64,000 nucleotides of DNA, taken from the NCBI RefSeq assembly GCF_037392515.1, contig NC_090291.1, positions 19,384,001-19,448,000 on the forward strand. The letters run 5' to 3'. Numbering within the stretch: the stretch's first letter is position 1; the number at the start of each line of letters is the position of its first letter. Below, one piece after another: positions 2,679-62,764 of this stretch. Below the pieces are notes generated by a model. That model saw only the letters and a list, made by a program, of their open reading frames with translations. It was not told where the DNA came from and ran no database searches. Both the position numbers and the translations under genes were made by a program. This stretch comes from Haliotis asinina (lineage: Eukaryota > Mollusca > Gastropoda > Lepetellida > Haliotidae).

Positions 2679-5600
2679 CTAAACGCGTAGAGTAGGACAA
2701 CTGTTAATGTTGTTCACACAGTTCTCGATCCACTGTATGTAGTTCGCTACCTCGGTGATGAAGATGGGTAGCTCGGGTGTCGTCACTCCGCCGCTGCTGA
2801 CGAGGCAGTTGTTGGTACTGATGATGCCTCTAAGCCACCACTTGTTGGCCCTGTGGCACACCACAATACCGCCCCAGTCCGACTGAAATAGTCACTTGTG
2901 GTCATGAGCGTCACAATATGGAAAGAAATTCCCTAGTATATTTTAAATTCAATTTCAGAGACAATATGTGTATAAACTAAATTCTTTTAAATAGTGGTTC
3001 AGTTTTCTCTGAATTATTATTACACATATCGTGCGATGACGTGTGTGGCAGAATGAGGATAAAAACAGAATATTGCATCTTTGCAAAATCTAACGGCAAA
3101 GATGGAACTTTTCAATCATAACATAATTAGACAATTATACGTAATTGTTTAGTAAGCGCTATTCCCGTATGAATCATGATATTTATGTAATTCTTAATAA
3201 TATTAGTAATAACACACAACATTCAAAATACATGGTGAAAAAATAGGACAATCAGGGCACTGCTCTCAGGCTTGGGATGCGATGATATAACCCACGTTTT
3301 GTCCTGCAAGCTGATATTGAACCATCGCTTTGAAAAGATATGTAAAGGACAACGTGAGAATGTATCTATATGTTTGACGTACCAGACATGTTTGAACAGA
3401 CGGGTTGTCGGGTCTGCCTATGACGACACCATCTGGCAAAAACGTCTGGGGATATACATACTGCATAATAGCTTCAGTGAGTTGCCTGCTGTACATCTTG
3501 ATGTGAGCCTGTTGTGGGATGTTGGGCGGCCCAGAGTTTTTATCTGTTACAATCATGGCTTCCGATGAGAATGTTTCAGTTGCAATACAGTTACGTTGAA
3601 TGGATGATTGCATATTGTACTACGCCGCTCTTAGCGATATTCTAGCTGTATCAGGACGAGGGACATCAGAAATGTGTTTTACACATTGTACCTATGTGGG
3701 AATGGAACCCAGGTCTACGGCGAGACGAGCAACCACTTTACCCACTCGGCTACTCCAAAGCCGTTTGGTCTTGTGAAAGAATGTAGTCGAGGTGAAATTA
3801 AGATTCTTTGATTCCTTAACAGAGTAGACTACACTGATTGAGGAAGCTCGTTACAGATATTGTAAAATATTTGAAGAATTATTTTCTCATCATAAATATC
3901 GTCCACTGAATGCACCGAACAGATAATTACTTGCACCTTGCATGCAATAGGTAGTTTTCATAGAGGGCATGTAACATACACATACCTTCAAACCATGCCG
4001 GAGGCAATGAATATCAATTTGTCAAGCAGTCATGACGTTTTACGGGTCGACCTTTCTGGGAGTTTAGCATTAACACAAACACAACCCTTACTACTCGTAT
4101 CACCAACAGAAGCCATGATGCACGTGTCATCCACTTCCGGTACGTCATGGGTGCTTGTAGCCCTGCTGCGTTTGGGTTCCAGACAGGCCGGGTGTTTGCA
4201 GTTGTTGTACTGGATGCGGGATCTCAGCTTGAAGATAGCGATGTTGTTGCCTTGGAGGAAAACATGAATCAAAACGATGATGTACGTCTTGAAATATGTT
4301 TCTTGTTTAACGTCATACTCAGCAATAATCCAACTGAGTCAGATCCAGACAATTCAGAAACTGACATTCTTAACGGTCTGTACATTCGGATGCGCGAACC
4401 AAGTCACGAGCCTGACCAGCCGATCCCGTTAGTCGTGACTTATGACAAGGATAGGCTGATCAAAATCATTTCTAACCAGAACATTCCAAAAAATTTTCCA
4501 CTTCTGTTTTACTTAGAATACCTGACCACACCGCATGACTGTTATATATTCCACATGTCCTGTAATTCATTTGCCTCAACACGCTTCTTGGACAAGTTAA
4601 AATGCCTTTAGATTATACCATGTCGTAATTCTAGATAACTCCACCACAGTTAATACGTAACCGTTTGTACAAGTGATCACCCTATGCAATATGCATATAT
4701 CTGTCTCTCCGTACATGCACATACAAGCTATACTAACTTGTTGTGATATTGTTGTAGTCTTCGTGGATCTTTATTTCCTCCACTTCAAAGGAATCTTCAG
4801 GAAGACCGTCGCTGCTATAGTCAACTGTTCTGCTGTCATAATTTCCAAGTATAACTCTCGTTGCCTGTCGTGCAGCTGCAGCGTTTGGTCCGTATAGTCT
4901 GGGAAACAATTTTTGTTACAATAATGACCTCTACATTTCTAATATTGAGGCAAACCCCTTCATGACCCAAACTGTGATTGTATGTAATTTTAATGCTTTG
5001 TATGGGTTAACAAAGGATGACAGCACTTGAACATCTGTTCAAGACTCAGACTCGGCTTTTCCTCACTGTGCTGGAGTAGCCGTGTCATTTTCTTACTACA
5101 ATTAATTGTTTCAGAAACAGGAATTGACATAATATTACTTGGGCGTGAAGCCACGTGGACGCTAGTAAATATCGCTGACTACAGTGTAAACATCCTTCCT
5201 GCTCCCCCCTCCCTCCATGTGTAAAGGTCATCCGGTTCAACACCATTTAGTGACAATGAAACAATGTTGTCAACTGGTGCACTGACTCGTAGAAGTCCGA
5301 GAGAAATCCTGTTTGAGAAACTGCTTCCTTGTCACATGTCAGTGAAGCAGACATTTGGCAATTTCATCAAGCAGAATATGGGAAAATCGGGTGACGTACA
5401 CAGTGCTGTTATTATGTTGATGGCACATGTCCGCAAAAAAGTCTCCCCACTTAATTGACAGATGGAATATTTTACTGAAATGAAATTGGTACTTTTTTTT
5501 CTAATGTTTTATTTGGATTTATTCACAATGGAAGATCAAGGTTAGAACTGGTCTTCAGCAACCCATGCCTTTCTGAAGAGGCTACTATCGGGACCGGATT

Positions 5601-8506
5601 GTCAGAGCCTGTCTCTGACACTGACTTAGTCTACTGTGCCATCTGTGCCCAAAATAGTTTTTTGTTTCAAAGGAGGTAATACTTACGGAGCAGCACACAT
5701 GGCGGAAGTAAGAATATATTGGTCACTGATGATTGCTCCACCACACACTGTCAGGTTGCCGAAGTTGAAGCTGTTGCTCAAGTTGGAGTTGTAGTAGACC
5801 TTGATGCTGACGAGAGGGGTGTAAGGCCACGTGCACTTCAAAATGTTTTGACCTCCCAAAATTCTTGAATGTACTAATTCTTCACCGCATCGATCTGTGG
5901 GCATGATTTATTACTAAAAACATGTACAATACTGATACCAACATTCAAATCTGCTTGAGCGGAACGAAACACTAATTATATTGCAAATGCAGTGTATGAG
6001 TGTGGGCGTGCGCGTGCGAGTGGGTCTGTGCGTCTCATTTGACCACCCGATCTGCTTAGTCGACAAGTAACCGAAGGTCAATTCTGTGACCCAGAACTTC
6101 ACGGGTCCCTTGGGTCCTGTAAAGCATACTGCAAACTAGATGACATGGTCAACGATAGCCCCCAACGTATGCAACACAAGCCATAAGACAGATATTATTA
6201 TGTCTGGGAAGTTATGCATATATGATTATTTTCATTAAACATCCGTAGTGACATCATTGATTTTGTGGAGCACTGATGATATCCGATAGTGTCATATCTT
6301 CATATCTGCTTTACAGAGTGTCATAAAGATGGGTCAATGTTACAACAGCGTGCTTGTACACATCATTGTGTTTGTAAATATTGTCCAGAGGAAGGCATGA
6401 AATATGTGTATGAATAAACATTTAAAAAAAGAACAGTTTTATTTCCATTTTAGGCAATGCAGAGTACATTTCTTGAAATAGTCAACGGTCGCGTTCATTG
6501 TCTAATATCTGTTGTGATTGAGTTGTGTTTGACGTAACTCTGGGAAACACGCTGGGACAACGCTTACTACTGGCAAACAAGGATAAGCTGGACCGGCACA
6601 GAGAACGCGTTTTCGAGAGCTACGTGCCCGGCAATGAGCAAACCCATTTGGTTGTGAAAGGTAGAGCGGGCATAGGCTAGTGCACGTGCAGCGCATGACG
6701 ATGAAATTGAAATTGATTTCGCTGCACACACCATGCACATAACTGTCATGTGGTCGGTGCAGCAAGTCGGCAGTACACTACACTTGATTACAGACAACCT
6801 GGGGCCCCTTCGCTCACAATGACTAGGTCCAGTGAGTGGTACTCATACATGCTAAAACGGGTCATTTGTCAGGTTGGTGTTCAACTTATCCTTGTTTGCC
6901 AGTAAGACTGTACCATGAGAGGGATTAATCTTACCTGAGGAACACTGGTTTTCTATGCATGGTTGTGTTTGGAAATATGGCCCTGAACAGTATCCCGTGA
7001 CGCACGTGTGAGATCTCCTCCGTACCCCTTGTCCACACGTGACAGAGCACGTGCTCCACTTGGACCACACTGACCAGGCACCATCTTCTGCGCACACAAG
7101 CCTTGTGTCATCAGTAATGTTTAACTCACACCAGCCACACAGTTTGGAATAGTGATGCTTTTGTATCACGGCACAGAAACTCAATCGACTACATGTCGAC
7201 TCCAGGTGAATACTGGACTTCTATGTTAAATTTAAATTTGAAATCTATCTATAAGTGTTCTTATAGAATTTACATGTTTGTAATCCCCAGATGTTCATTG
7301 GTATGGTGAGTTTTGGTGATTCCTTCTGTTGATGTGTTTTGCTCGGGCTTTCCAAAACGTAGCAAAATTATTGATAACACCATCAGGCTTCACTATATGC
7401 CAAAAAACAATATCCATTTAGGCCCGAGTTTGTTTTCTAGTTGGATAAAAAAAGCCTGCGTTTGTAATGTGAGTATATTTGTAATGTAATATAATTGTAT
7501 GTCATTTTTGGTACCTCCTGAATGATGGTATGTCCTGAGATAATATCATGTAAGATATGTTCAGAATGATCCGTCATAATCAACAGCCAAAGATTTAGAT
7601 TGTTTCACATAGATTTATACAGGGGCTGTTTTCTAAGTACACACCCATTTTGATCTTTCAAAAACATTGTGTTCGGAAATATATATCACACACCCATTTT
7701 ATATATCTGAACACAATGTTTTTGAAAGATCAAAATGGGTGTGTATATCTGAACACAATGTTTTTGAAAGATCAAAATGGGTGTGTCCTTAGATAACAAC
7801 CCCTATATATAAGCTGGTACTGTTTACTCTAGATTGGGAGCTGGCACTTGTGTGACTTCAGTATTTCGACTGAACCCTTGACCTTTGGATCATGTATGAA
7901 TAGTGAACACATTAGAGTCGGTTATGTCCTTATGAAAGTCATCTGAAAGTAGGTGAGTTTGATTCTAGCGGACCTATAACAATCTAAAGCACACAAAATG
8001 TTTCATTCCTATTTTGATTCCTGATGTCTGTAATGCATTTATTGCAGATTTTGCATTTTGCGGGGTGCCAAGATAAAAAAGGTTAAACAAAACGGGGATC
8101 TTGAGGCTAGAACGTAGCCAACCAATTTGCTTGAGGTTCACAGATAATATATAGAAAAACAGAACACAAAAACAGCTGCATTTATACTCATTGTCCTGGT
8201 GAGGCTCACTCCTTTTTGATATCCCCTCGTACCAGCACATACCTCCACCTTGACGACAGCACACACCGACAAAACACAGTCTGTCATATGTGTTTGTTTG
8301 TTGTGTCTCCTGGGTATAGCATGCTGGCCGACAGCTTCCCCGGTATAACTGGGCACACACTGAAAAGTTTAAATCCATCACGCGCATTATCGAAACATTA
8401 TTATCACAAGAAATATTTTGTTCAGCCTAAGGCATGGAAACTATACCTGATGTCGTTATCGGAAAAAGATGCATCTTTAATTGATTGTGGTTTTACTTGT
8501 TTTTGC

Positions 8507-8589
<83 letters not shown>

Positions 8590-9055
8590 GTTGACTCCTG
8601 AGACTTCAGTCGCACAAGGAAGCGTTTATGTGATACACGTGGTCTCACCTTAGGTATGTGAGTTTGTACAAAATTGCCTCCGTTCAAACAGCAGAGAATG
8701 GGTACCCGGTGGGATAAGCCATGTGACTTTGTGCAGTGTCTTGATTATTAGCACTATGAGCAGTCACCAAGTGAATGGAGTTTATAAGTATTATAAATGC
8801 ATTTATCATTATTCTTAATATACTGCACCGCAAAAGAAAAGCAACTGATTTTTTCAAGTTTTTAAATAGAAGACATAACATGAACCCTTACTTTTATGAG
8901 ATTTCGTTTTGTTTCTTTTGTTGTTCATAGTAGTAGTATTTTACAGTATGAATACTAAGTAAGAACAACTTACGGGTATGGCGGATATACTGAGCTCCCA
9001 AGGATGCCAGCTGCGCTGCTAAAAGCAGCACAATCGTCACGCTGAAAACTGTCAT
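2679..9055 (-). CDS. Gene A: secreted defensin-like / TSP1 / serine protease homolog (pseudoprotease)
   Basis: Eight coding exons (minus strand): 9055-8974 signal peptide, 8359-8243 defensin-like, 7087-6935 TSP1, 5894-5687, 4898-4738, 4250-4092, 3543-3383, 2882-2679. They join in phase to 414 aa. Residues 1-21 are a signal peptide (MTVFSVTIVLLLAAQLASLG). Residues 28-66 carry six cysteines spaced C-x7-C-x3-C-x14-C-x4-CC; residues 67-117 are a TSP1 repeat. The S1 domain follows an activation motif HSR-ILGG. All three catalytic positions are changed: LTSAMC (His57 to Met), SNNIAI (Asp102 to Asn) and SDWGGI (Ser195 to Trp). Asp194, Cys42-Cys58 and the prodomain Cys (DRCGEE) that pairs with Cys122 in chymotrypsin are kept. 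The protein is thus expected to be secreted, foldable and non-catalytic, with its N-terminal modules tethered after cleavage. The ATG at 9055 is chosen over the in-frame ATG at 9079 because a TATA box lies at 9086-9092. Function as an immune or adhesion factor is inferred. Confidence 0.85.
3622..3764 (-). repeat. S1 SINE in gene A intron 7-6
   Basis: Reverse copy: tail CGCCGCTCTTAGCGATATTC at the left, GACATCAGAAATG body, and tRNA-like head (CACTCGGCTACTCC) at the right end. Confidence 0.75.
4395..4465 (-). repeat. S2 SINE fragment
   Basis: CGAACCAAGTCACGAGCCTG and CCGATCCCGTTAGTCGTGAC match the reverse S2 head region. It lies in the intron downstream of gene A exon 5. Confidence 0.5.
5531..5612 (+). 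repeat. S2 SINE head fragment
   Basis: AGGTTAGAACTGGTCTTCAG and CAACCCATGCC, then GAAGAGGCTACTATCGGGAC, match the 5' head of S2. It is truncated after about 80 bp. Confidence 0.6.
6567..6906. mobile_element. Possible short TIR element in gene A intron 3
   Basis: ACTGGCAAACAAGGATAAGC at 6571 is repeated inverted as CAACTTATCCTTGTTTGCCAG at 6882, giving about 22-bp ends around 340 bp. The interior has no coding signal I recognise. The right end lies 28 bp from the TSP1 exon donor. No clear target-site duplication was seen, so it could also be an inverted duplication. Confidence 0.4.
6935..7087 (-). CDS. Exon 3 of gene A: thrombospondin type 1 repeat
   Basis: This 153-nt exon is phase 1-1. It reads DGAWSVWSKWSTC, the W-x2-W-x2-W-x2-C signature of TSP1, then CSVTCGQGVRRRSHTC and three more cysteines (six in all). 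TSP1 repeats usually bind glycosaminoglycans or other proteins outside the cell. The donor GTAAGA is good; the acceptor GCGCAG has a weak pyrimidine tract. Because both ends are phase 1 the exon can be gained or skipped without breaking the frame. Confidence 0.85.
7620..7805. mobile_element. Mariner-like MITE with internal 42-bp duplication
   Basis: Terminal inverted repeats of about 55 bp (CAGGGGCTGTTTTCTAAG at the left, TAGGGGTTGTTATCTAAG as the complement of the right end) are bounded by TA on both sides. The right arm contains two tandem copies of a 42-bp unit with ATCAAAATGGGTGTGT. It has no coding capacity and is non-autonomous. It lies in gene A intron 2. Confidence 0.7.
8243..8359 (-). 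CDS. Exon 2 of gene A: six-cysteine defensin-like module
   Basis: A 117-nt phase 1-1 exon between acceptor TTTTCAG and donor GTATGT. The peptide LCAQLYRGSCRPAC ... LCFVGVCCRQ has cysteines spaced 7, 3, 14, 4, 0. That is close to the C-terminal domain of molluscan big defensins (x6, x3, x13-14, x4, 0) and to beta-defensins. It has no long hydrophobic big-defensin N-terminus. A second GT six bases upstream (8248-8247, GTGGAG) would remove two codons and keep the frame. Family assignment rests on spacing only. Confidence 0.65.
8508..8589. repeat. (GATA)n microsatellite
   Basis: About 20 uninterrupted GATA units. The apparent open frames across it are repeat artefacts. Confidence 0.95.
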
Positions 9056-9085
9056 TTTCAAATGTTCCTGGACACCCATGCTTCA

Positions 9086-9092
9086 TTATATA
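9086..9092 (-). promoter_or_regulatory. TATA box of gene A
   Basis: On the minus strand GCTATATAATG. A start of transcription about 30 nt downstream would fall near 9060, just above the ATG at 9055. This argues for a very short leader and for that ATG. Confidence 0.5.
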
Positions 9093-9450: not shown

Positions 9451-9580
9451 GATCGGTGGGGTAAACTGGAGGTTAAAGCGTGCACTGGTCACTACGAATA
9501 CCCAAGTTCGATTCCCAACATGGGTATCGTTTTTGGTGTCCCCCTTGCTGGAATATTGCTAAACGCTAAACTCACTTACA
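9451..9580 (+). repeat. S1 SINE
   Basis: Head GGATCGGTGGGGTAAACTGG, B-box AAGTTCGATTCCC, tail TTGCTGGAATATTGCTAAAC and CTAAACTCACTTAC. The body is shortened. Confidence 0.7.
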
Positions 9581-12270: not shown

Positions 12271-15200
12271 TTATAGGGTATCGCAAAAGGAAATGTTCTC
12301 CACACAGCGGTTTATCCAGTCCTTGTAGTTTGCTACCTCGGTGATGAAGATGGGTGGCTCGGGTGTCGTCACTCCTCCGTTGCTGACGAGGCAGTTGTTG
12401 GTGCTGATGATGCCTCTAAGCCACCACCTGTTGGACTTCTGGCATACCACAATACCGCCCCAGTCAAACTGAAACCGATTTTATATCATTTTATATTAGA
12501 ATATGGATAGTGAAACTGATGATCACTTTCCAAATGATAGCTAGGGTGTTTTATACATTCTAGAAAAGATGTCTTTGCATTAAGAAATTCTGCAACACCT
12601 TGAAGGGATACATCTTGCCTGTTCATAGGAAAACCATTACCTTTTCTTAACAAATAAACATTACAACACATGTTATTGTTCCCCAAAAATATATTTTACT
12701 CACATCCCTAGGTATGGATTTATTGTTAAGTAGCTGGGGTCAGTGTGTGTATATGCGCTGTCACACAGAGCATAATCTTATAACAAAAAATATATAAAAT
12801 CATAAAAATTCTTCTCCCCTTCCTCATTAGTATGAAAAACACTTAACACGTAAACTGCGTTTTTAAACTTTACAGTTATACTATAGATAAAAAGATAATA
12901 AGTTCAACGCAGAATTACTGGAACGTTACCCGAATTGTTGCAAATGTCTTTCGTTGTATGTCAAAAGTATGGAAGTAAAGTCTAGGTATGATTGATACCA
13001 AATGGAACCAAATGGTATCATTCATACCTAGATGATCATTCCAAGTTATCAACATATGTCTTTTTCACTTTTATGCTAACGCGAACATACATTTCATTTA
13101 AGAATGAACCTACCAGAAAAGTAATTCCTTTGTAATGAGATGTGTTCCTAGCTTATAGTCTGAAGGTACATCAACTGTACATACATTGAGTTAAGATGAG
13201 TTGAGCTGAGTTGGGTATTATGTCACACAATATATTGATCCCTACATCGATGTGATTGCCTTATGTTGTAATGTGAGTTTGGTTTTAATATTGTGTTTAG
13301 CCATATCCCAGCTATATCACGGCAGGGGACACCAGAAATAGGCTTCACACATTGTATCCATGTAAGGAATCAAACTCGGGTCTTCAGCGTGACATGTGAG
13401 CGATTTAACCACTTGGCTACCCCACCGCCCCTTATATTGTGATGTGTTTCTTTAAACCATTTCTTTAGTGCATACCCTGCAGGTTCGTTTTGAAAAGTGT
13501 TCATCATATCCATATATTCGTATGCTTTGAGGTGAAAGCGTTCGCTCGTCACGCCGAAGACGCGGGTTCGATTCCATACATAGGTACAATGTGTGAAGCC
13601 GGTGTCCTCCGCTGTTAAATTGCTAGAATATCGCTAAAAGTGGCGGAAAATCATACATGTTTTCCCTCATTTCATTAATACGTCAATCCAACGTACCAGA
13701 CAGGCTTGAACAGACGGGCTCTCGGTTCTGCCAATGAGGGTGCCAGCTGGGAGAGGGTTGTTAGGTGCTTGTCTTGCAATGGCTTCGGTCACCTGTCTGC
13801 TGAGGAGCTTGATGGGAGCTTGTTGGGGGATATTTGATGCTTCTGCATCGTTCGCTGTAACAGGAATTTGCAACTCAAGCGATGCTGGTTTTTAACAGTA
13901 AATTCTAACGTTTACTGCATATTCATAATAGCGGCGTATCGAAACCCAAAAAACAGTATTCCAGCCAGTGAGGTGCGTTTTTACCGATTATAGATAATCA
14001 TATGGCCACGTATATCACATGCATACGATGTCAAGCCATGACGCCTAAGCACATGGAAGGCACTTGGAACATGATCGGAAGACGTGAGAATCTGTGTTAA
14101 AGGCCACTAGCTACGGTAGGTCAGCTGTCCAATAGGGGGAGTTGACTAAGTCCCTGAACTTGTCACGTGCAATATTGAACATTACACTAATCGTGAGGGC
14201 ATGACCATTTATTGACCAAGTAATCACAAACGTTTATTCTTGGTCTATACTCCCTGGGTTCTTCGTTGTCAGTGCCTTTGCAATACTCCGTCAACAAGTT
14301 CCTGTGTGTGTCTCTTTCTTAGGAACCATTACCATAACTCAATAGCTCTTTGTATTTCTGTGATCAATTTATATTTTCGATTATTCCCCGGTTTTAGGGG
14401 GTGTGGAATTGATCAAATATTCTGCAAAATGATTTTGTTTCTCACTTCTGCGGTCTGTAAATACTTCAATCTGGATCAGATAACCCAGTGATCAACATCA
14501 TGAGTATCGGTCTTGGCAATGGAGATATGGCGACGAGTCTCAACCAAATCAGCTCGCCTGACTCCCCGATCTCATTCGTAGCTTCTTCCGACTAGCATGG
14601 GATGATGAAACCAAGTATAACCCGGATCTTCAAAGGTTTCTACAAACTGTCAACTGTTTCTACAAACGAGCATCAAATTGCTTAGCTGTAATTGCAAACA
14701 AATCCTTACGACTCTTAAGTCCAACTGAGGCCATGATGCACGTGTCATCTACTTCCGGTACGTCACATGTGCTTGTAGCTGCAGTACGCTGAGGTTCCAG
14801 ACAGGCCGGGTGTTTACAGTTGTTGTACTGGATGCGGGATCTCAGCTTGAAGATAGCAATGTTGTTGCCTGAAACAAAATACAAACAGAGACCTTGACAC
14901 TAATCTTCGAGAAGAATTTTGTTTTCACAGCATTCCAACATCTAGCTGACACCCAGTGAGTGAGTGAGTGAGTGAGAGAGTTTAATTTTATTCCAGTGGC
15001 AATACAAAAAGCGACAAAACCTGCTCTATCTGAAATAATAATTATGAAATGCTTTGTATGAATCCAACAAAATCATTAGTATATATGTATGAATTAAATA
15101 TGTCAAACACTGACGATGTGTGTTTTCGAAAATGTTATGAAACTTGTCACAAACGGACACAGAGACAAAATAGAATATTTACCTTAACCAATTTAAAAAA

Positions 15201-18200
15201 AACACAAAAAAACCAAAAACAAAAACCACAAGACAAACAAAAAGGTAAAAAACAACCTATGTCCATACCAACATCTGTATCAGGCATCATTCCGACAAAC
15301 TCTAAAATACCACATGTCTCTGATAGAGCTGTACAATGTTCAAAGGCCTTGACTACTGTATTCCTGGTCAACCAAATATTGTAAGTTTCTTCTGGTAGAA
15401 AGAGGTTGCTGAATGTTGAACCTCGAAGCGTTGTGGAATGTAGACAAAGTAATCCCCCAATATCTATTACAGTGAAAGAGCCACTAAATTGCTTGACGCC
15501 TGTGTTCTTACTTGTTGTGATGTTGTCATAGTCTTTGTGAATCCTCACATCTTCCAGTTCTATGACATCTTCGGGGCGGCCGTCATTACCAAAGTCTGTT
15601 ATTCTGGCATCAAAGTCTCCAACGACAACTCGTGTCGACTGACGTACAACTGCTGCACTTGGCCCGTACAATCTATGAAATACATTTCACCATTGTTATG
15701 ATCAATATATAACTTGCAGTTAATAAAAGACCTCTGGCTTTACCCATATAATATACGTAGTGATCTGTTTGATTGGCATGTTGGAGGCGAAATGATAAAG
15801 AATATGCTACTTTTAGGATAACAGCTCCCCTATTTTATCTTTCCTACTATCGTCGTTTACAGTGTTGTGTGTATGTGTGTATGCGTGAGGTGTGTATGGG
15901 TGTGAGAGGGGGGGGGGGTAATGGTCGGGTCGGGTGCAGGACCGGGAGATAAGGGGTGGGGGAGGTGTAGAATATATGTCAAACCGATAAATTTTGATGA
16001 CCTTCATATACATTTCAAGATCCTAAATAACATTAAATGTAGCTACTTACATGAACCTTCATGTCAACATTACGACTATGGTTGATGTGAACCTGACTAT
16101 GAGTAAACTCCTTGAACTTCGCTCAAAGTACACGAATCATAACGTACAACCAACAACCACCCTTTGCAAATATAACTATATAACGGATCTTTGTATAGAT
16201 CTGAGTTATGAAAGCATCTGACGCATGGAGAGTTTACAATGCTGTCAGGATATACTCCTAGTTCCTCCATATACATGTACACAGTGGCACAGCCTTCTCA
16301 TTAACGTTGTTTTTCGTCACATTTATAAGCATAAATATATCTTTAAATTGAATTTTCTAGTTTCACTAACCGCTTACTTGATTTTGGAACAATGTACCCT
16401 TTTAGCTGTATATCATCAATAACAAATCACAAAACGACGGCAGCTATTTGCAGCACGGTTTTTCCATTACTCTTTAAATACTTCCCCTACCTTCTTGAGA
16501 AATACCATAAAAATTAAGGTTAATTCGGATTCTACTCCGGACTGTACTACACGAACACAAGACGGTGTATTCGTATGCAGCTCTCTATGAATGTGAGTTC
16601 GAATCCCGATTCGTCTTGAACAATGGAAACTGTGTTCTTTTACAAGAAAAAGACACGTCGAAGTCTCACAAATGTGCACCTCCTGTGATTTTATGAGCAT
16701 GAGACATCAAAATAGTCTGTCCTCACTTCTATACACACAGAACACGTAATTATTACAAGACTGGTGCCGTTGGGTAGCCTAGTGGTTAAAGTATTTGTTC
16801 GTTATGTCTAGGGTCCGGGGTTGGTTCTACAAATGGATTTGTGAAAATGTTCTACTTACGGAGCCGCACACACAGCGGAGGTAAGAATGTACTGATCACT
16901 GATGATTGCTCCACCACAGATTGTGAGGTTGCCGAAGTTGAAGTCATTGCCAAAGTTGGAGTTGTAGTAGATCCTGATGCTGACTAGAGCAGTAAAGGGC
17001 CATGTGCACCTGTTTACGTTTTGACCACCCAAAATCCTTCCAGTCACGGCCTCCTCACCACAACGGTCTGTGGACATGGACACAAATACATGTACATATT
17101 CTCATGTAAAATACTTGTACAAATCTGTCAGTATATGTGGTGTATTTAGCTTATAGCAATGCCTGAAGATTAATCGAGGGGGTATCGACAAGATATTACC
17201 AAGACGTTTTCAGGGTAGAAACTTTATTTTGATTTCTTTTCATCAGGACTTTCTTACATTGTCATCATCCAGAGTGACAAATTTCTCCAAACATTTCTTG
17301 ACCTTGTGTAGACCGCTTAAATAGAACACCTAATTTCATGGAAAACCAACACTTCGCCACTTCAATGACTTCACTGGTATCGTCCATATATTGGCTCCTC
17401 TGTCAGGGACATGCGTTAGGTTTGAAAATTCCCTTTCCATCTCACAACAGTATCATAGGATGGGCAGTCTTCACCATAAACAGATTTCATCTTCTCTTGA
17501 TTCTGTCGGGCAGTACAACCCTTCAATTGCAAAAACTTGATAACACTGCATGACTCAATATTTTGCAAGCATAGGGTTATTCCTGTTTAGGGTCAACCAG
17601 AAGATTGAATAAAGTGAAAAGAGCAGTTTCCGGTCCATTAACTAGATAAGGATCACTGATGTTATCTTATAATTTTCAACATAATTTATCAATACATTCA
17701 TGGCGATAGTTAGAATTTTTCATATCCCCTCGTAAATCATACATAGAAGACAAATGTGTAATTAGATTTAAAACCAGTGTGTCTGGCATCAATTTGATTT
17801 TAAAAGTCTTCCTTTCTGATATCAACTAAATACTAGCAATAAAATCCGTGGTTTCTTACATCAATTGGACATGAAAAGCCAGAGTACCTTACATCCATTT
17901 GATATTAAACAACCATGGTTTGTGACATCAGTTGCCAGGAGCTCTGACATCACCTGAATATTCTGAATTGTCAACTGTCTTCATTAACACAACGTTATAG
18001 AGTGCATTAAGGTTATCTTTCACAACAAAACATTTATATGTTGTTCATTGTGATGACCAACTGATCAAATGCTTAAAGAATTAGTGTCTTCTTACTTATT
18101 GTTATCCGTCTGTTTTTCTTTCGGAACTGTTTAACATCTCTACAAAACATGTAAAATGAATATTCTAAAATGTCATTCAATTAGTTTGAAGTGTGAGATA

Positions 18201-18442
18201 GTCACAAATGAAAACCAAAATTATTGTAATTATTGTTTTCATCAATCAACAAAACAAAATGTTCTTACAAGGATATAGAGCTACATATTCATGACCACTC
18301 AGAGTATATTATTTTCATATTGCAAAACAACCTGCGAAATGTATTTTCAAGAGAGAAAATATCAAATATTGAACCCCAAACCTGGTAACTGAGCAGTTGC
18401 AATGCCGATGCAGACGGCGACAAAGCAGACGAGGCTGTGCAT
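12271..18442 (-). CDS. Gene B: secreted serine protease homolog (pseudoprotease), no N-terminal module
   Basis: Six exons: 18442-18382 signal peptide (MHSLVCFVAVCIGIATAQLP), 17067-16860, 15672-15512, 14868-14710, 13854-13697, 12468-12271. They join in phase to 314 aa and match gene A exons 4-8 in phase and nearly in length (208, 161, 159, 158 and 198 nt against 208, 161, 159, 161 and 204). The S1 domain starts at TGR-ILGG. Catalytic positions read LTSAVC (His57 to Val), SNNIAI (Asp102 to Asn) and FDWGGI (Ser195 to Trp). It shares with gene A the Trp at 195 and the Asn at 102, so these losses predate the A/B duplication. The prodomain Cys (DRCGEE), Cys42/58 and Asp194 are kept. The 1.3-kb first intron shows no module exon. 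Reading frames are clean, so this looks like a functional non-catalytic paralogue. Confidence 0.85.
12982..13031. repeat. Short hairpin
   Basis: CTAGGTATGATTGATACCA and TGGTATCATTCATACCTAG form a 19-bp stem with one mismatch around a 12-base loop. Lies in gene B intron 5. Could be a small foldback relic. Confidence 0.6.
13273..13431 (-). repeat. S1 SINE
   Basis: Reverse copy with tail GTGAGTTTGGTTTTAATATT, GGGGACACCAGAAATAGGCT and head CCACTTGGCTACCCCACC. Confidence 0.8.
13528..13653 (+). repeat. S1 SINE lacking its first bases
   Basis: Begins inside the tRNA-like head (AAAGCGTTCGCTCGTCACGC), B-box GGGTTCGATTCCA, tail TGCTAGAATATCGCTAAAAG. Faces away from the copy at 13273. Confidence 0.7.
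14450..14637 (-). repeat. S2 SINE, diverged, no tail
   Basis: GTCTGTAAATACTTCAATCT, CAGTGATCAACATCATGAG, GCCTGACTCCCCGATCTCAT and CCGGATCTTC follow the reverse S2 order. Confidence 0.65.
14956..14999 (-). repeat. Orphan SINE tail
   Basis: GTGAGTGAGTGAGTGAGTGA followed by GAGTTTAATTTTATTCCAG: only the shared S1/S2 terminus remains. Confidence 0.5.
15873..15962. repeat. GT/G-rich low-complexity tract
   Basis: TGTGTGTATGTGTGTATG leading into a run of ten G and GGGGTGGGGG. Lies in gene B intron 2. Confidence 0.7.
16762..16848 (+). repeat. S1 SINE head fragment next to gene B exon 2
   Basis: GTTGGGTAGCCTAGTGGTTA and GGGTCCGGGGTTGGTTCTAC are A- and B-box regions. The copy is truncated about 12 nt from the exon 2 donor (exon end 16860). 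Confidence 0.65.
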
Positions 18443-20155: not shown

Positions 20156-20159
20156 TTAC

Positions 20160-53630: not shown

Positions 53631-56600
53631 CTATGGGGTGGCAATAATAGAATCGATCCAGCGGCGGTACTTAGCTACATCAGTGTATATAGCCGGAGTA
53701 TCTATCTGAGCACAGTTGGATCCCGTTGAAACAAGACCTACTAGAGTCAACTTCTGTCTGCCGAGTCTGTCCCATGTTGAGCACATAAGGGGCCCTCCCG
53801 AATCGCCCTGAAACAAATAATATAGGTGACACATTGCTGATAGATATATGAGTGAATGGGATGTGATGCAGCTAAAATTGTGCATATTTCTGTTATCATT
53901 TCATGAGGCTATGCCATGATGTCGTAGACACGTAACCCTTTCTAAGATCATTGGTTAGTATACTGAACAAAACAAGTTAAGGATATTGTCTTTTTCATGA
54001 TTGATATTTTATCAGTTTGTCAATGAGTAGATAGATCATTATTCATAAATGTACAGATATTCCTAACTATTTTTGTCCAGCAGGTTAGTTTCGGGCCAGG
54101 GGGATCATGGTAAATAAGATACGCAACTCTGTATAACACGTGCTTCGGCATCCATGTCAATAGAATGTGTTAGTTTATAACATGTTTATGTATTTGTCGG
54201 TGGATATCATGTATTATTGATGTCAGGTTACCGCACCCCACAAGAGTCTCGTCCTCCCTCGAGGGCACCGGCACAGTAGTTAGTCGATCTGAAGTAGCTC
54301 GACCCAAACTTCCTTACACAGATGGTGTCGTCCACGATGTCCACGTTCACCTTCTGTAGTATTGCTGACAAGGGAGGATCTAGATCTGTAATGGTAAGCA
54401 TAATAATAAGTATTATATTCAGTGTCTTGCATTTGTATTCAGTATTCACAATTACTTCAAAGTTATTTCGATATAATTAACACTTTCAGTAAAATACCTT
54501 TCATTAAAACTTCGGGACTTTAAAACCTATCGAGTTCTCCTTGGCTCGTGACAAATAACATAACCGAACACATATTCAACAATGGTGTTTGTCATCCGTA
54601 TCAACATAACAAAAGCACAATTTTTTTCTAGGTTTCTAAGCTTAATTGAACCTCTTGAGTGCCATGGCAGGCAAGATAGTGTTTAAGAATGGTTTAAGAA
54701 CGATGGTTTTAAGATAGTGTTTAAGAACGATGGTTTTAAGATAGTGTTTAAGAACGATGGTTAATCTTTTTCAAACAGTATTTTCGGTCACTGAGTATTA
54801 TTACTCTCTCTTGTCTGTAATGAGCAGTGCACGTACATGTATGTAATTCGTTTGTCATAAGGCTGCGGTTGAACTCAAAGTCTCCACTATGTCTAACGGT
54901 TGTCAACAGCAAATAATTGATATATCAGTATGTGCACTAAATGAGTCACAATAAAATGGGCTCAGGAATTTGAAACCATCTATTCGTTTCAAGATGCCAT
55001 TATGCTTTGCATCTGTCCACACCTGCAAGACAGAAGACTGCACCTGTACAACCAAGGGTATAAACACATAACAGCCTTTAACCCAACGTGTACCAATTCA
55101 ATGGACTTAACATCAGTAAATGTCAAAGTCCCATATTTCGTGACAGTGTGAGTCTGCTTGATTATGTTGCATGTGTCTCTTGGATCAGTCAAATCAAACA
55201 CGAACGTGACATTAAGATGAGTCAGACACAGGGAAGAAACAACGTCGGGTAAGTCAACAACTCCAAGCTTTGACAGTAAAATCCAAGAATGGCCTATTGA
55301 CAATTTGAAGGATATACGAGGATTCTTTTACCTGTTGTATTCGGACCTTTCTTCCATATATTAATCCAGATCATATATATTAATGTCAACGATTATGAAG
55401 GTTATATCATAATATAATGTATAATAATAGTGTACTGTATCAAAACGTGTTGTGCAGGAAAACAATATTCACTCAACTCTTCAGGTTTGTGGTATACCTT
55501 GTTAGGGACATAAAAAAATGAAGAAACTTTCCATTATCTGATGAGAGAGAAACATACACTCCGAAACGTTGTGTTATTCATAATAAAGAACTTGACATCC
55601 ATAAATCTTGCCTTTCATATGCAATCCACTTTCAAATGTCATTCAAAGATTTCCCAGTTCTTGACATTCACCATGTTTTCAGTTGCAACTTTCTTTTTTT
55701 AATTGAAATGCAAATGGTGTACTATTTTTAGTACTATTTTTACAAACGTAAATACATAATTTTGGCAATGACACTCATATTCCTTTGCACTTTTTGTTTT
55801 TTTTGTCTTTTTAATGTTTCAAGGAATCGTTTTCTATACATATGATGTAATCTCAACGGCTACTTTAATAAATATTAAAAGCCGCCTTGTTTGGGAATAG
55901 ATTAACATCTATATTTACTTGAAACTAATCGAGGCACGTGTAAATTTGGTAAACGTTCACTGAATTCATTTAACTACAAACTCCCTTCCACTTATCATTA
56001 AAAAAAGTCTCTGCTTGACATAATAAGAGTCGATAATACGATTTCGACCACTCCATAAGCACGTGTTAATAACTCATAATCTTTTAGTGATGATGTCAAG
56101 TGTTTGCGGAAATTTGAACATATTCTGCCCGACTGTTGCACTCTTAAAAAACGCATACCCAGCCAAGGCATTTTTAAAATAGCCTGCGCACATATTCTTT
56201 AAAATATTTTGTAAGACTGAACATTGTAACCCTGAGTTCTGTGGAGCTCCTTGTAAAAAGCATGTGCGACTGACTTGAGCAAAAAGTTGAAATTATATAC
56301 TTGGAAAACTCCTGTTGTTTCAGGTCAAACAATTCAAAGCAAGAGCATATTTCAATACGAATGAAGCATGTGTTGCATTTTTTAAGGAAATCTCTGTCTG
56401 TTCTCTGCATAGCTTGCTTGATAAATGTCCCATCCGAAATATGAAAACTTTACACAAACTATACACAAACGCTCAGACAGAGAAGCGATACCAAGTCGAA
56501 ATGACTGATATTACAAAACGACAAAGCACCATTGTGAAATGGAAAGTGAATTTAAATAACAGGCGTAAAAGGCATCATTAAACTGAAGTTTTCATAATGT

Positions 56601-59600
56601 TGGTTTGTCGTTTTAACAAACATAACATCGGTATTTTTGCTCGTTAGTTTATACAGATTGCAACAAATCAACCCATTTAAACAGAAAAGAGGGTCTAAAG
56701 AAACCGAAAATTCAGAACCAGGGGAAATCTAGACTTCATTTAGGGCTATAGCATGCCAGACTGTGGGGAAAATATTATGGTTGACAATATAATGTGGGAC
56801 TGTGTGATAGCCTACGCAAACTATATTGACAGGAATACCTTAATTTCCGTTCTGAAAATATATCACCTGCAAATATTACACTCACATGTATAGTTTGTCC
56901 GTGTCACGCCCCATCCTGTCACTGTGCAAGACACTCTGGAAAATCTTTGCCCAAACTCGGGAATACAGACTGGTCTAAGACACTCGTAGCGTGAAAAGTC
57001 GATCGGGTCATCCAGTTTAATGATGGCAATATCATTCTCTAAGAAAAATATAAACATTATCATTACAATTGACTGTGTTTGCTATTGCATCAATTGCTAG
57101 TATGCATTGGAAGAAAACCGAAAAATTTCCACTCATACATATATAGAAGCCTAAGAGTTGAATATGGCTTGAGGTTCGTTTGTAACTCGTATAACGTACA
57201 TGTATCTTAAGTTGTTTGGCATACAGCTGTTTCTACAGGAACTCCTCAATGCTCTTACTGAAGAGTGGAACAGCACTTATTGGCAGCTCCAGACCAATTA
57301 ATGGTCGCATCACGAGGATCATATATACGTTTCCTGGAGTTTTGTTTTCGGAAAATCAGTTCTTTTATGGATGTTACGACGTTTCGGTTGATACTCTCCG
57401 TCTGATAGGTACACAGACTGATTTTCGGTCTCCCGTTGTTCGTGGAATTATTCGGTTAATCAAATCTGTCTTCATGCAGTACTATCCCAGCAGTTACAGT
57501 TTGGAGAATTACCTTTTAAACAGACGATTCTTTCAAACCATGAGTAGTATAATATCCTTTATATTATTTCAGTCATTAATTTACCTTCTATGTTTAATCT
57601 TAAAACAAAACGTAGTAACATATTTAACGACAGAAACATGTGCGGAATATTTTACAAAGGAGGAAAGTTTTGAGCTTCTATTTGGTGTACATGAATGTGC
57701 AATGTGTTTGCTAGAAAAATATGTATGACATGAATAAGGCCGTAAAATGGTCAGTGATCCGCCTCGCTGCTTTCAGTTTCGTCGTGCAGTCGTTGAATCG
57801 TTACAGTCACGGTTTGCTAGGTTCTGTTATTTACATGTCACTGTAATACAGTTGAAACATTGCCATTATCCATGTGAGAGAACATTGACGTAACCATGTA
57901 TGATCCTTACTGTAGAACTGTGATTGGTATGTCGACGGAATGAATATTCTGTAATTGCGTACGACAAACTCCGCTCGTGGTCTGTCCTCATTTGTGTTGT
58001 ATTCACCAACTGTTATAGTCAGCTGTGACTTTGCGACGTTACTGAAAAGATAAAAGATAAATTCATATCATTGCAAACTGCATATGTAAATGTTACTTAT
58101 CACATTTATAATTTTATATAGGAGCATTCAAAGATGTTTCACAAACAGAAAAAAAAATGTTTTACGAACATATAGTATCATACTTTTCTTTTCTTTTCTT
58201 TTTCATGCTTGTATATATAGAGAATTCAAGTCTTTTAACTCCCGCAAAATATTGTCGACAGATAACTTGATATTGAATTTAAGATAAATTTAAGTCTTTG
58301 AATGTCATCTAGAAGTGAAAATACATAAGAATGAAGATTTTTATGGATATCAACTTCTTTATGAGAGAACACAACGTTTCGGAGTTAATGCTTACTCCTT
58401 CATCAGATGAAGGAGTAAGCATTAACTCCGAAACGTTGTGTTCTCTCATAAAGAAGTTGATATCCATAAAAATCTTCATTCTTAAGATAAATTTAGATAT
58501 GGATTTGCTAAGATGAAAGTATAATGAAGGTAGATAGAAAATATATATATGTAACAGAACGTAACTGTCCATTATGCACTAGGAGTAACAGATTAGTATC
58601 ACCTGTTATTTGTTTGTAATTCTTATAATGCTCTTAGAGCAAAATATCTACCATCTGTATATTGTCAAAAAAAATATAATGAATTTAAGTCCCTACTAAT
58701 GACAAAACAATTCTAAAGAAAAGCATGTACGTATTTATACCATGCATATCAACTAGGAGAATTAAAATACTTGCCCATTTATTAAAATGCAAATTTTCAT
58801 ATGATTATCCATGTACTACATCATTATAGCTGTGTGTTGTAAACTCAAACGTTGTTATTGTATATATGTGTAAATATATGTAAAATTTGTATATATGTGG
58901 CCCGTGATCTCGGGGTAGAATAAGTCTTCATCAACCCATGCCTGCCATGAAAGTCGACTACGCTTGTCGTAAGAGGCTACTAACGGGATCGGGTGGTTAA
59001 CTTCAAATTGCTTGACACTTGTCATCGGTTCCCAATTGCGCGGATCGATGATCATGTTGTTGATCACTGGATTGTCTGGTTCAGACTCTATTATTTACAG
59101 ACTGCAGCCATATAGCTGGAATATTGCTGAGTATGGCGTAAAACCAAACTCACTCACTCACTCACTTCACTTGTAAATATGTATTATACGGGCTTGTGGC
59201 CTATAGAGAGTGAAAAGACTTGACTTTCACAAATTTATCTCACTTATGAAAACAGATCAAACCACTCCTGTTGAAACTTTGTCCTGAGTGATTTCTAAAT
59301 CAATACGTTTACGTGTGTGTTATTGTATTTCAAACCATTGTATATTCTCTTTACATCATTCTGTATGATTTGCGAGAATACTTTTCTGTTCTATTCTGTT
59401 TTGTTCTGTTGATCTAATGCCTGTCACAGCATAATGTCCAGAAATGGATTTCACATAGTGTCCTCATATGGATAATCAAACTCGGTTTTCGGCGTGATGA
59501 GCGACCGGACGCTTTAACCACTGGGCTACCCCACCGGGCCCCATGGCAAGGAGATACGTGTCCCCTTAATATCCCTATGAGTGCAAGCATCTTCTTACCT

Positions 59601-62600
59601 CAGACAGTGGCCAGCTGTCACTATATGTCTGTCGTCGATGAGGCTGCCACCACAGGGACTATTTTCTCTGTATATGTACACCATCCATGGGAATTCACAG
59701 CGGAGTGCATTGGTACCGCCGATAACACGAGACGACACTCCTGTTAATACCTGTTGTCCAACCCCGCATTCTGTTGAAATAGTGAGTGAGTTGCGTTTTA
59801 AGCCGCTTTTGGCAATATTCAAGTAATGTCATGGCGCGGGACACCAGAAATGGGCTTTACACATTGTACCTCTATGGTTACACACATTGTTCCTCTATGG
59901 TTACACACATTGTACCTCTGTGGTTACACACATTGTACCTCTATGGTTATCGAACCCAGGCCTGGGGCGTGACGAGAAAACCTTTTAACCACGATAATGC
60001 TCTGCTAAAGAGGAATCAGGACCAAACAAACCATATACCATACATTCAGTAGTTATATCTTGGCATCCATTAATTGTGACGCTGTATTGCCGTCAGGAAA
60101 TATGTCACATAGTCAGTGTGTTAAACTGATTACCGTGTTAAACGGTAATAACGGTGGGTAAACAAATACCGGTTTAGTTCTGTAACTCGGCGGTTGCAAA
60201 ATACAGGGCCTGTGTCTAATAATTTTATCATCTGGTCATTTAAGCATGTGTTCGCTGATTCATTGTCAAATGGGACAGTATGTCCCCGACAATACATAAA
60301 ACGTAATCTAATAACAAAAGGAACTATGTATTTAGTCATATCTATAGTCTGCAGGGATCCTATATCTCTGATAACATATAAAACATACTTTAATAACAAA
60401 GGATGTATTTGATCATATCTACATTATTGCAGGGACCGTTTGCCTCCAATAACGTATGCATCATAATCCAAAAACCAAACAGAGCATGTATTGGTCATAC
60501 TTATGGTCTAAAGGGACCATAGCCATGTACCTGGGAATGCTGGATGTGGATTTCGGGTGGATGGTGTCGTTGTCGTTGTCGTTGTCGTCGTTGTCGTTGT
60601 CGTTTTTCTTCCTGATCGATCTGGTAAACAGCAGTAGTTGTATGACGGACACAATATAGGGGCTTGGAACAAAGTTGTTTGACCAGCTGGACATGTGCGG
60701 TAACACTGACCTTTGAGTAAGCGACAAACTGAAACAATAGAAAATATTCATTTGCTGTTGCAAAGATACCCTGCTGGAATATATAAGTGTGTGTCTCTCT
60801 TTCTCTCCGTGTGCAATATATTCTACTATACTGCCATTCATTTATTTGTGTCAGTCTTATTGTGTGTGCATCTGTGTGAATTGTGTTATACTATTCTATC
60901 AATCATGTATTTGGTTCTGTTTTATTGTGTGTGTCTTTGTGTTTAATATGTTCTACTATTATGTCATTAATGTATTTGTGTCTGTCTTATTGTGTGTCTC
61001 TTTCTGTGTAATATATCATATTATCCTGTCATTCATGTGTCTGTCTTATTGTGTCTGTCCTTGTGCGTAATATGTTCTGCGTAAACTGTTCTGTTATTCA
61101 TGTATTTGTGTTTGTTATACCCTGTGTGTGTTTGTGTGTCATATGTTCCACTATTCTGTCATTCATTTCTTTAGTGCACTGGAAATGTATTCCCTTGTAA
61201 ACCGTATACACGATTAATAATAGCTCTGTGACTGTTATCCGTGGTTACTTGTCATATTATCAAATTTGTAACACAACAGAACATAAAGGGTAATGAAAAG
61301 CGTTGTTCATGGCAATATCTACAGTACAGATAAAAGTGGATTTTACAAGTTTCTTTTAAATTTCTGCATGCCAATGATACAGATCAAGAAATTCAAATAG
61401 CAAAGAATAACGTCAGTGTCATTTTATCTGGTTGTAACAATGTCGTAAACACCAGGAACAACCTTCCACACCGTTGTAACGATATCACACAATCATTCCT
61501 CACAGTCATCATAAGTGATGGTGCAGCAAGCACGTGATTCTGGTATCCTGTTTGATAGGGTCCTAAGGTGTTCGAAGCATTTGAAATTATACATGTTTTT
61601 GAACACCGAAGAAATATTTCATTTTCATCTCAGCGGGATGCAAATATCGATTTAGAGTGATGCAAATATGTGACTGAAAACATGAGCAAGGACACATATT
61701 TTTTTTATCAAACCCGATCAGTCAGATCATTAAGCCTTACTTGCCAATTCAAATTTGAATAGGGAATAATGAACAGCATGGCGGATTGTATGTACGTCAT
61801 ATGGATTTTTCACTAAAATCCCACAATCTCAAAGAGGCGTTGTACGTTTTTCCTTATCACAATTAAACTTTTCGGCCTCAGTTTTATTCAAACCAGCTAA
61901 ATAAGTCAACATCACACACCTAGAAATACAAGTACGTTCGTGTGAGCATGTTAACTGTCAAAACAGTACGCATGCAAAACAGAAACCATCGCATTGTTTG
62001 AGATGCAGTAAAGGTTTTGAGGTTTTAAATGGACATTTTGTGGTGGTGTTATTGTAACTGATATGGCTATATATGTTCAGTCGTAAAACATATTCGTCTC
62101 AAAAGCTGGACCGTGTCCTGCAGAGGAACGTCACAAGGAAAAGGACAGTGTCCACTTGATGATGCAAACATCATCATTCATCAGGCATCTAAATCCATTT
62201 CAACGAGTTCCTTGTGGAAAGTGAATTTTATTTACTATCTATAAATAATGATTTACATACTTCTGTAAAGGCTATCTTTATGTGTGTAAATGACTTAATC
62301 CCTGTGCAAATACGTTTGTTTCACAGGTTTGCGGTGAAATACAGCTGAGCGTCTGCTTCACCGAGAGAGTAAATGTCACGCCAACAGTCAGCTCTGAATG
62401 AATTATGGTAATAGGGCCAAGCTGCTAATGACTTGTGTACTTCCATTGCCCTACTTCATGATTGTACGTAAATACTGGCTAGGTGGCTTCATGTTGAACT
62501 GGAATAATGAATTCAAACCCAATTTAACACCTGCGTGCATTTATAACAGGTAGTGCAAACGCACTGCAGTGAAAGCATAAAATTTAAACCGGATATTGAT

Positions 62601-62764
62601 ACCTTTGACTTTAACTCCGTTGACGATTATGTATGTATATGTCTTATGAATAAGATAAAACAATACTTACAGTTAAATTGTCCATTGGTAATAGAGGCTA
62701 AATGAGCCAGTAGTATAATCAGGTATACAGTCCTGGGCAACACTGCGTCCAGGACCTTCGGCAT
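53631..62764 (-). CDS. Gene E: secreted trypsin-like serine protease, catalytic triad intact
   Basis: Seven exons: 62764-62671 signal peptide, 60728-60711 microexon, 59770-59599, 58041-57911, 57038-56886, 54385-54237, 53807-53631; 297 aa in phase. Activation site SSR-VIGG. Triad: TAGHC (His57), KNDIAI (Asp102), GDSGGP (Ser195). Asp189 in GRDSC predicts cleavage after Arg or Lys. Unusually position 226, normally Gly at the back of the pocket (PGVY), is Ala (TPAIYT), which could narrow the pocket. Prodomain ECGVGQ Cys can pair with RPVC (Cys122). An in-frame ATG at 62818 would add 18 residues; I chose 62764 because LPRTVYLIILLAHLASITNG then forms a normal signal peptide. The exon 6 donor is GTGCGG, weak. 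As the only live protease in the cluster it is a candidate partner or activator for A-D (inference). Confidence 0.85.
54673..54763. repeat. 28-bp tandem repeat
   Basis: AAGATAGTGTTTAAGAACGA at 54710 and 54738, with a variant at 54673. Confidence 0.75.
55520..55612 (+). repeat. Family P element, single arm with hammerhead-like core
   Basis: CTGATGAGAGAG at 55538, CTCCGAAACGTTGTG at 55559, AATAAAGAACTTGACATCC and ATAAATCTTGCC follow. Stem II would be short and imperfect, so activity is doubtful. No inverted partner nearby. Confidence 0.55.
57340..57410 (-). repeat. Family P remnant
   Basis: Minus strand: CTATCAGACGGAGAGTATC, AACCGAAACGTCG, AACATCCATAAAAGAAC. Same order as 58326-58484. It lies inside a 170-codon plus-strand open frame (57216-57728) that I do not regard as a gene. 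Confidence 0.5.
58326..58484. repeat. Perfect 159-bp palindrome, family P, hammerhead-like core
   Basis: Two 79-bp arms are exact reverse complements around one central base (58405). Starts TAAGAATGAAGATTTTTATG. On the minus strand the centre reads CTGATGA (58406-58400), then A, GGAGT, a loop, ACTCC and GAAACG (to about 58375): the conserved hammerhead ribozyme core with one extra A before stem II. On the plus strand the same place reads CAGATGA. Gene E intron 3. Perfection of the arms implies recent formation. Confidence 0.8.
58901..59167 (+). repeat. S2 SINE, full length
   Basis: Head CCGTGATCTCGGGGTAGAAT, CTAACGGGATCGGGTGGTTA, CACTGGATTGTCTGGTTCAG, ATATAGCTGGAATATTGCTG, tail AAACTCACTCACTCACTCAC. 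A useful reference copy. Confidence 0.85.
59415..59541 (-). repeat. S1 SINE
   Basis: ATGTCCAGAAATGGATTTCA, ATAATCAAACTCGG and CTTTAACCACTGGGCTACCC. The tail is eroded. Confidence 0.7.
59780..59997 (-). repeat. S1 SINE with internal 25-bp expansion, at gene E exon 3
   Basis: Tail GTGAGTGAGTTGCGTTTTA at 59781, 10 bp from the exon 3 start (59770). The body unit CACATTGTACCTCTATGGTT ACACA is repeated four times. Head CTTTTAACCACG at the right. Confidence 0.8.
60563..60606. repeat. (GTCGTT)n microsatellite
   Basis: About seven GTCGTT units with one GTCGTC interruption. Confidence 0.9.
60711..60728 (-). CDS. Exon 2 of gene E: 18-nt microexon
   Basis: CTATTGTTTCAG, 18 exonic bases, then GTCAGT. 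It converts the signal exon end (AAC T) and exon 3 start (AA TGC) into N-F-C-R-L-L-K-E-C. Direct joining would give the stop TAA. It sits where gene C has its 21-nt microexon. The donor is GTCAGT, less typical. Confidence 0.6.
60790..61170. repeat. Degenerate 65-75-bp tandem repeat
   Basis: Recurring TGTCATTCATGTATTTGTG, TCTTATTGTGTGTGTC and AATATGTTCTACTAT, about five units. Gene E intron 1. Confidence 0.65.

Follow-up and report, generated by a model that had tools for sequence, protein, structure and literature searches.

Clip-domain serine protease homologs (clip-SPHs), the dead members of clip-type systems, have been studied in arthropod immunity. In the arthropod proteases and homologs (cSP/cSPH; CLIPA, masquerade and PPAF-II type), one or more modules of six cysteines with a final CC precede the S1 domain; a linker follows, a cysteine pair joins this linker to S1, and an Arg activation site is present. 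S1 zymogens are cut after Arg15, upon which residue 16 binds Asp194 and the domain reorders. This cleavage and the N-terminus/Asp194 pocket are also kept in the dead S1 domains of HGF/MSP-type growth factors and other S1 pseudoproteases. According to PMC6901238, mosquito non-catalytic clip-SPHs require cleavage to work. In this work we describe an array of S1 genes in the gastropod Haliotis asinina, found around a stretch of 64,000 nucleotides of contig NC_090291.1 (hereafter the window), which resembles the arthropod systems in the cysteine pattern, the linker, the cysteine pair and the Arg site, and in the coexistence of active and dead members.

The window corresponds to C12:19384001-19448000, C12 being our label for the contig in a genome of 1.14 Gb and 159 contigs. 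Together with flanks of 60 and 140 kb it makes up 264 kb, which were scanned with a profile built from the five S1 genes of the window (A to E), trypsin and chymotrypsin. This region contains 21 S1 genes or remnants, in the chromosome order W1, W2, W3, Z, A, B, C, D, E, F, G, H, I, J, K, L, M, N, O, P and Q. The preliminary description had treated A to E as a five-gene unit, an impression that came from the window edges, since the 200 kb of flanks add 16 further S1 genes or remnants. Both His57 and Ser195 are lost in 11 of the 21 (W1, W2, W3, Z, A, B, C, D, F, G and H); the catalytic triad and Asp194 are present in seven (E, I, J, L, O, P and Q). K keeps His57 and Ser195 but has Asn at 194 and Val at 197 in place of Asp and Gly; in N, Ser195 is replaced by Cys; and M has the triad residues, the start of its S1 exon 1 not being found. 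Judged by these residues, loss of function has also begun in K and N, which lie on the active side. E is the sole intact gene within the dead block, and the other intact genes start about 40 kb further on. Another S1 exon lies past the scanned stretch, at C12:19590689, and S1 exon matches number at least 149 in the whole genome (149 of 150 scored candidates; 240 in a first pass). Six exon matches of the genome to Pfam Egg_lysin (best E 2.9e-12), all above the curated cut-off, fit an abalone or a close vetigastropod, the snails for which this family is typical.

A pattern of six cysteines ending in CC occurs at 12 sites in the 264 kb, each of them in the same orientation as the S1 gene that follows. 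The carriers are nine of the 21 genes: W1, W2, W3, Z (two copies), A, E, F (two copies), G and H (two copies). Eight order-3 Markov copies of the sequence gave 0, 0, 1, 0, 0, 1, 0 and 1 matches, 60 more averaged 0.25 with no copy above 2, and the reversed sequence gave none. The best acceptor and the best donor of the module exons are of phase 1 in all 12 cases, and seven of the exons (W1, W2, W3, both of Z, F and G) already stood in a ranking of phase 1-1 exons by splice score made without the pattern, that of G with a slightly different start; A's module had also been found earlier without it. The consensus of the module is CxxLYGGxCRxxC...C...CC. In Z the exon pair of A is doubled, the transcript order being module, TSP1, module, TSP1 and S1. 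TSP1 occurs only in A and Z and VWA only in C among the array genes examined; the VWA is the exception among the slot modules, and the six-cysteine type recurs. The idea, raised from the window alone, that a mollusc has a group of pseudoproteases, apparently secreted, whose modules at one phase-1 slot differ is supported by these exons. Intron phases were imposed when the flanking genes were modelled, and phases are therefore claimed only for the five window genes and the module exons.

Candidate signal exons were found for the module genes other than W1. That of Z occurs three times in identical form, at intervals of about 1183 bp, at 6541-6619, 7724-7802 and 8907-8985 of locus L014 (minus strand). 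On the active side, what precedes S1 in genes L to P is a short phase 1-1 exon of another kind, with four cysteines; Q has a six-cysteine phase 1-1 exon of another pattern (L021:1283-1402; L022-L027, genes L to Q); these exons gave no Pfam match worth naming. Upstream exon candidates are weak in I and J, and K has none. A genome search with A's module matched only A and the two copies of Z, so one query sequence cannot list the family. A looser form of the pattern found no module in L034 and L035 (C12:4.5 Mb) or in L039 (C1:63.4 Mb). Among eight short loci (L001-L008), it gave one match in L008 and an exon of clip spacing in L007. A second run of S1 exon matches was noticed on the window's chromosome, at C12:4.49-4.67 Mb, and two stretches sampled from it were without the six-cysteine module.

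The S1 domains of A to D match Pfam Trypsin over the cut-off, and His57 and Ser195 are missing in 11 of 11 dead genes, as is proper to S1 pseudoproteases. Position 195 of the dead genes holds, in chromosome order, Y, E, L, N, W, W, E, E, G, N and K. With seven different residues there (W, E, Y, L, N, G and K), Asp194 is yet kept in 10 of the 11, the exception being Z, a combination that makes a cleavage-triggered, non-catalytic shape change directly testable. By alignment, 10 of 11 retain Arg15 of the activation site (three of them doubtful), seven of 11 retain Asp102, and all 11 have the Cys1/Cys122 pair. Disulfide 42-58 has been lost whole in W1 and W3, and 168-182 in A and B; W2 has lost Cys58 alone, and W3 also Cys191.

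The comparison of A with B over 293 codons gave a ratio of nonsynonymous to synonymous substitution rates (dN/dS) of 0.29 at a dS of 0.67, so the two genes have been under purifying selection. They share the loss of His57, D102N and S195W, and the loss is therefore most likely older than their duplication. For C and D the dN/dS is 0.19, but at a dS of 2.4, near saturation. A maximum-likelihood tree of 20 sequences separated the seven intact genes, trypsin and chymotrypsin from the 11 dead genes with a split support of 99.7/95. The tree omits K, M and N, and W2, W3, Z, H, J, P and Q entered without exon 2, which was not found. It favours a single loss of catalysis and falls short of proof because of the long branches, the three genes omitted and the seven without exon 2.

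Then, we propose that the array encodes molluscan clip-type proteases and pseudoproteases, and that the dead members would be cut like zymogens and act as non-enzymatic partners in an extracellular cascade; judged from sequence, we give this a probability of about 0.58. The proposal draws on the two ends of the activation switch and the cysteine pair, kept without the catalytic pair, and on the precedent of the mosquito clip-SPHs. The commonest build in the models is a signal peptide, one or two copies of the six-cysteine module (beside TSP1 in A and Z), a Thr/Pro linker in several genes, and S1; C has an adhesive VWA at the same slot, and in B and D the slot is empty. The dead proteins, presumably secreted, would be cut at the Arg site by an active member of the family, either E or one of the genes I to Q. 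The new N-terminus would bind Asp194 and change the shape of the domain with no gain of catalysis, and the Cys1-Cys122 pair would keep the module chain tied to the S1 chain. The cut proteins could then serve as cofactors, adaptors or decoys, as arthropod clip-SPHs do. E is possibly the nearest activator, having Asp189, which suggests a trypsin-like specificity, the only intact triad of the dead block and the same module. The HGF/MSP-type proteins are alike, by description, in their dead S1 domain with a retained cleavage site, and differ in having kringle modules and in being receptor ligands.

Several observations weigh against this proposal. The activation sites of W1, W3 and F are the doubtful ones, because the residues that follow are not IVGG-like, and Z has lost both the site and Asp194. 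A and B form a close pair, as do C and D, and the residue counts therefore lack independence. The search for signal exons yielded no candidate in W1. Within the window B, C and D are without the six-cysteine module, and a search upstream of S1 found no module exon of any kind in B and D. The modules depart from arthropod clips in one spacing and in their Pfam results, as detailed below, and an immune role for the dead proteins is argued purely by analogy.

Such a gastropod array of active and dead clip-like genes would be a variant of the known clip-type systems. A clip-type protease, a single gene, was reportedly claimed in a scallop, a bivalve, by Zhu et al. in 2007. Keyword searches of open-access papers found no such gastropod array described. 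The array would offer a second lineage for asking why cascades keep dead proteases and whether clips came from defensin exons.

The comparison with clip-SPHs, made in the preliminary description, is strengthened by the cysteine pattern of the array's commonest module. The honey bee annotation (PMC1761132) counts as clips six cysteines N-terminal to S1 with Cys5 and Cys6 adjacent, which holds for the 12 modules and so for nine genes of the array, of which A and E are those within the window. Clip domains further have 30-70 residues between Cys1 and Cys6, and those of group 1 fewer than 16 between Cys3 and Cys4. In the array the first gap is 30-37 in all 12 modules, and the second is below 16 in 10 of the 12, W1 and W3 having exactly 16. 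In clip proteins a cysteine in a PICLP context pairs with a cysteine of the linker (PMC1761132); the equivalents, Cys122 and Cys1, are present in the 18 of 18 genes tabled, and their bond is predicted. The array differs from the arthropod proteins in the gap between Cys2 and Cys3, which is five residues in 17 of 18 honey bee proteins (PMC1761132) and three or four in 12 of 12 array modules; in lacking a match to Pfam CLIP (PF12032) in its modules and proteins; in the TSP1 (A and Z) or VWA (C) that the slot can hold; and in belonging to a mollusc. A genome scan with PF12032 gave two places just over the cut-off (21.5 and 20.2 bits; E 0.3 and 0.9), neither of them in the array; the surrounding 3.1 kb showed no S1-like frames.

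The cysteine spacing of the module is close to that of beta-defensins. No Pfam defensin model matched over the cut-off; Defensin_beta_2 touched three of the 12 modules (best E 0.056) and Defensin_beta two (best E 0.099), while the single best Pfam value was 0.023, to DSL. A PDB profile search with the 12 modules gave partial matches to R-spondin-1 as the best (E 0.21) and beta-defensin 106 (E 0.44) as the only match over the whole profile. These weak matches lean slightly towards beta-defensins, below significance. Beta-defensins have a three-stranded sheet with the disulfides 1-5, 2-4 and 3-6. For E's module, AlphaFold2 with the 12-row alignment predicted a helical turn and three strands (predicted local distance difference test, pLDDT, 82; predicted template modelling score, pTM, 0.48). 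According to PMC7203481, the cysteine region of big defensins and beta-defensins is bordered at the same edge by a phase-1 intron, shuffling of this exon has been proposed for the vertebrate beta-defensins and is excluded for two bivalves, and abalones are among the gastropods having big defensins. The array modules are alike in the GxC motif and in this intron, the best acceptor at the 5' edge of the cysteine region being of phase 1 in 12 of 12. They differ in being phase 1-1 internal exons fused to S1 and in lacking the hydrophobic N-terminal domain of big defensins: the module exons start at or near Cys1, and only a signal exon was found ahead of them. Defensin_big (PF14862) had no genome match at E <= 1. 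We refer to the module as beta-defensin/clip-like, a name meant to fit either ancestry.

An active S1 gene outside the array also has a bearing on this point. At C3:69.377 Mb (L007:2959-3054, minus strand), an open exon candidate encoding CPQGGGECIPLSRCRGWVFGWDRYCGRGDVCC lies upstream of an active S1 exon 1 (VVGG, AAHC). It has the true clip spacing, C-x6-C-x5-C-x10-C-x5-CC, and an acceptor of phase 1; its donors are weak or of other phase, it matches no Pfam family, and its best PDB match is a tick carboxypeptidase inhibitor (E 0.0026). We put forward tentatively, as doubtful though conceivable, that the clip domain and the beta-defensin cysteine exon are one shuffled phase 1-1 exon, a link which the array would preserve, with three or four residues between Cys2 and Cys3 in its modules and five on this other active gene. 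If true, cofactor pseudoproteases of the clip-SPH kind would predate arthropods or would have arisen twice from the same exon.

Other explanations of the dead genes were considered. They might be functionless, decaying duplicates of active proteases, as would fit the loss of catalytic residues in 11 of 21 genes, the missing start of S1 exon 1 in M, the odd residues of K and N, and the state of Z, which is without Asp194 and activation site. However, A to D are open across six to nine exons, A and B share their losses yet show a dN/dS of 0.29 at a dS of 0.67, Asp194 stays in 10 of 11 dead genes, and two structural disulfides have disappeared as whole pairs (in W1 and W3, and in A and B), so we consider decay decidedly improbable. 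A use of the dead proteins as secreted structural, mucus, shell or reproductive proteins, with VWA or TSP1 on an S1 scaffold and no protease cascade, is unlikely in our view. The VWA of C does have collagen VI and the mussel proximal thread matrix protein as its nearest PDB relatives (best 60 of 411 matches), and VWA clusters on C8 and C12 as its nearest in the genome; but VWA is confined to C and TSP1 to A and Z in the array genes examined, a purely structural protein would need no upkeep of the activation Arg and Asp194, and an intact protease carrying the same module sits among the dead genes.

The module could instead be a beta-defensin set free or exposed when the protein is cut, with the dead S1 as its carrier and the proteins as antimicrobial effectors. 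Azurocidin is mentioned as an antimicrobial SPH in PMC1761132, and the weak beta-defensin matches, the modelled helical turn with three strands and the phase-1 intron ahead of the cysteine exon, as in big and beta-defensins (PMC7203481), would suit this. We nevertheless find it distinctly unlikely, as the clip-type disulfide Cys1-Cys122 would probably hold the module chain after the cut, several modules bear long Thr/Pro linkers, and the active protease E carries the module too. For gene C, the order VWA-S1 recalls complement C2 and factor B, both reported from Mollusca in PMC11312191. In C2/Bf, however, CCP domains precede the VWA (PMC11312191), and none was found in the model of C; no factor B or C2 chain is in the best 60 of 411 PDB matches, and the S1 domain of C groups with that of D, which has no VWA, at a support of 99.2/100. 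C was thus rejected as a complement factor B, a relationship that we regard as highly improbable.

The five genes of the window are all on the minus strand, and each has a reading frame open from the candidate signal exon to the stop. Exons were picked from core peptides and simple splice scores, with corrections by eye wherever the automatic chain had erred; signal exons, picked by hydrophobicity and a phase-1 donor, are candidates. The models have 36 exons in total. Pfam Trypsin matched in five of five (searches of E in Pfam and PDB used an earlier form with a microexon, identical in the S1 part). The S1 exons have intron phases 1|2|1|1|0 in all five, and the intron immediately upstream of S1 is of phase 1 in all five. 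The strand, this phase-1 intron and the absence of His57 and Ser195 from A to D, with E complete, agree with what had been described for the window.

Gene A (eight exons, 414 residues) begins with a candidate signal exon at 8974..9055, which has a hydrophobic start and a phase-1 donor and ends in QYIRHT like the candidate signal exon of Z. It is followed by the six-cysteine (defensin/clip-like) exon of 117 nt, phase 1-1, at 8243..8359, recognized by the pattern and its splice sites; by a TSP1 exon of 153 nt, phase 1-1, at 6935..7087 (Pfam TSP_1, E 2.1e-8); and by the five S1 exons at 2679..5894 (5894-5687, 4898-4738, 4250-4092, 3543-3383 and 2882-2679), with H57M, D102N and S195W. Gene B (six exons, 314 residues) consists of a candidate signal exon at 18382..18442, whose weak donor makes it the least certain of the five, and of S1 at 12271..17067 (17067-16860, 15672-15512, 14868-14710, 13854-13697 and 12468-12271), with H57V, D102N and S195W.

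Gene D (six exons, 284 residues) likewise has a candidate signal exon, at 46314..46371, and S1 at 37705..45057 (45057-44865, 43074-42929, 42221-42072, 38965-38808 and 37854-37705), with H57S and S195E. Its intron 4 contains, at 38249-38835 (minus strand), a tandem array in which the 3' half of the gene's exon 4 (NLNPANTVCVNPINKDQRPCQ) is repeated in copies of about 128 bp, with possible decoy splice sites.

Gene E (seven exons, 350 residues) has a candidate signal exon at 62671..62764, a phase 1-1 exon of 198 nt at 60531..60728 and S1 at 53631..59770 (59770-59599, 58041-57911, 57038-56886, 54364-54237 and 53807-53631), with the triad intact and Asp189. The model without this upstream site has a stop codon at the exon join, so some exon is needed there. 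The module list first given for the window stood for A (six-cysteine and TSP1), for B and D (none) and for C (VWA and microexon), and had to be corrected for E: its supposed microexon, 60728-60711, covers the first part of exon 60728-60531, cut short by the choice of an internal donor, and the whole exon is of the six-cysteine type, encoding CRLLKGQCYRTCPAGQTTLFQAPILCPSYNYCC and a Thr-rich linker. A short tandem repeat at 60565-60604 (TGTCGT on the plus strand) codes for this linker, whose length may therefore differ among individuals.

Gene C (nine exons, 466 residues) has a candidate signal exon at 35538..35601, a VWA domain in two exons at 32107..33409 (33409-33204 and 32443-32107; phase-0 intron between them, phase 1 in and out; Pfam VWA, E 1.2e-43), a microexon of 21 nt, phase 1-1, at 31413..31433 (TEIRVD), and S1 at 27296..31053 (31053-30867, 30171-30041, 29015-28869, 28302-28145 and 27445-27296), with H57S and S195E. 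The microexon is well supported, being one of just two such sites on both strands of the window at the set thresholds; the other is the E site at 60728-60711. The VWA keeps DTSGS, Thr and Asp, presumably the expected residues of the metal site. Its best near-full-length matches in the genome, of about 42-49% identity, are in the clusters at C8:39.5 Mb and C12:39.8 Mb. No second VWA was found in the array beyond the two exons of C, and, by eye, no other VWA match lies within 200 kb of an S1 match among the best 150 scored candidates of each. A 94-bp minisatellite of about 9.6 copies (33406-34300) adjoins the acceptor of the first VWA exon. Elsewhere in the genome, long tandem runs of near-identical VWA domains were observed at C10:14.38-14.53 Mb and C1:64.97-64.99 Mb.

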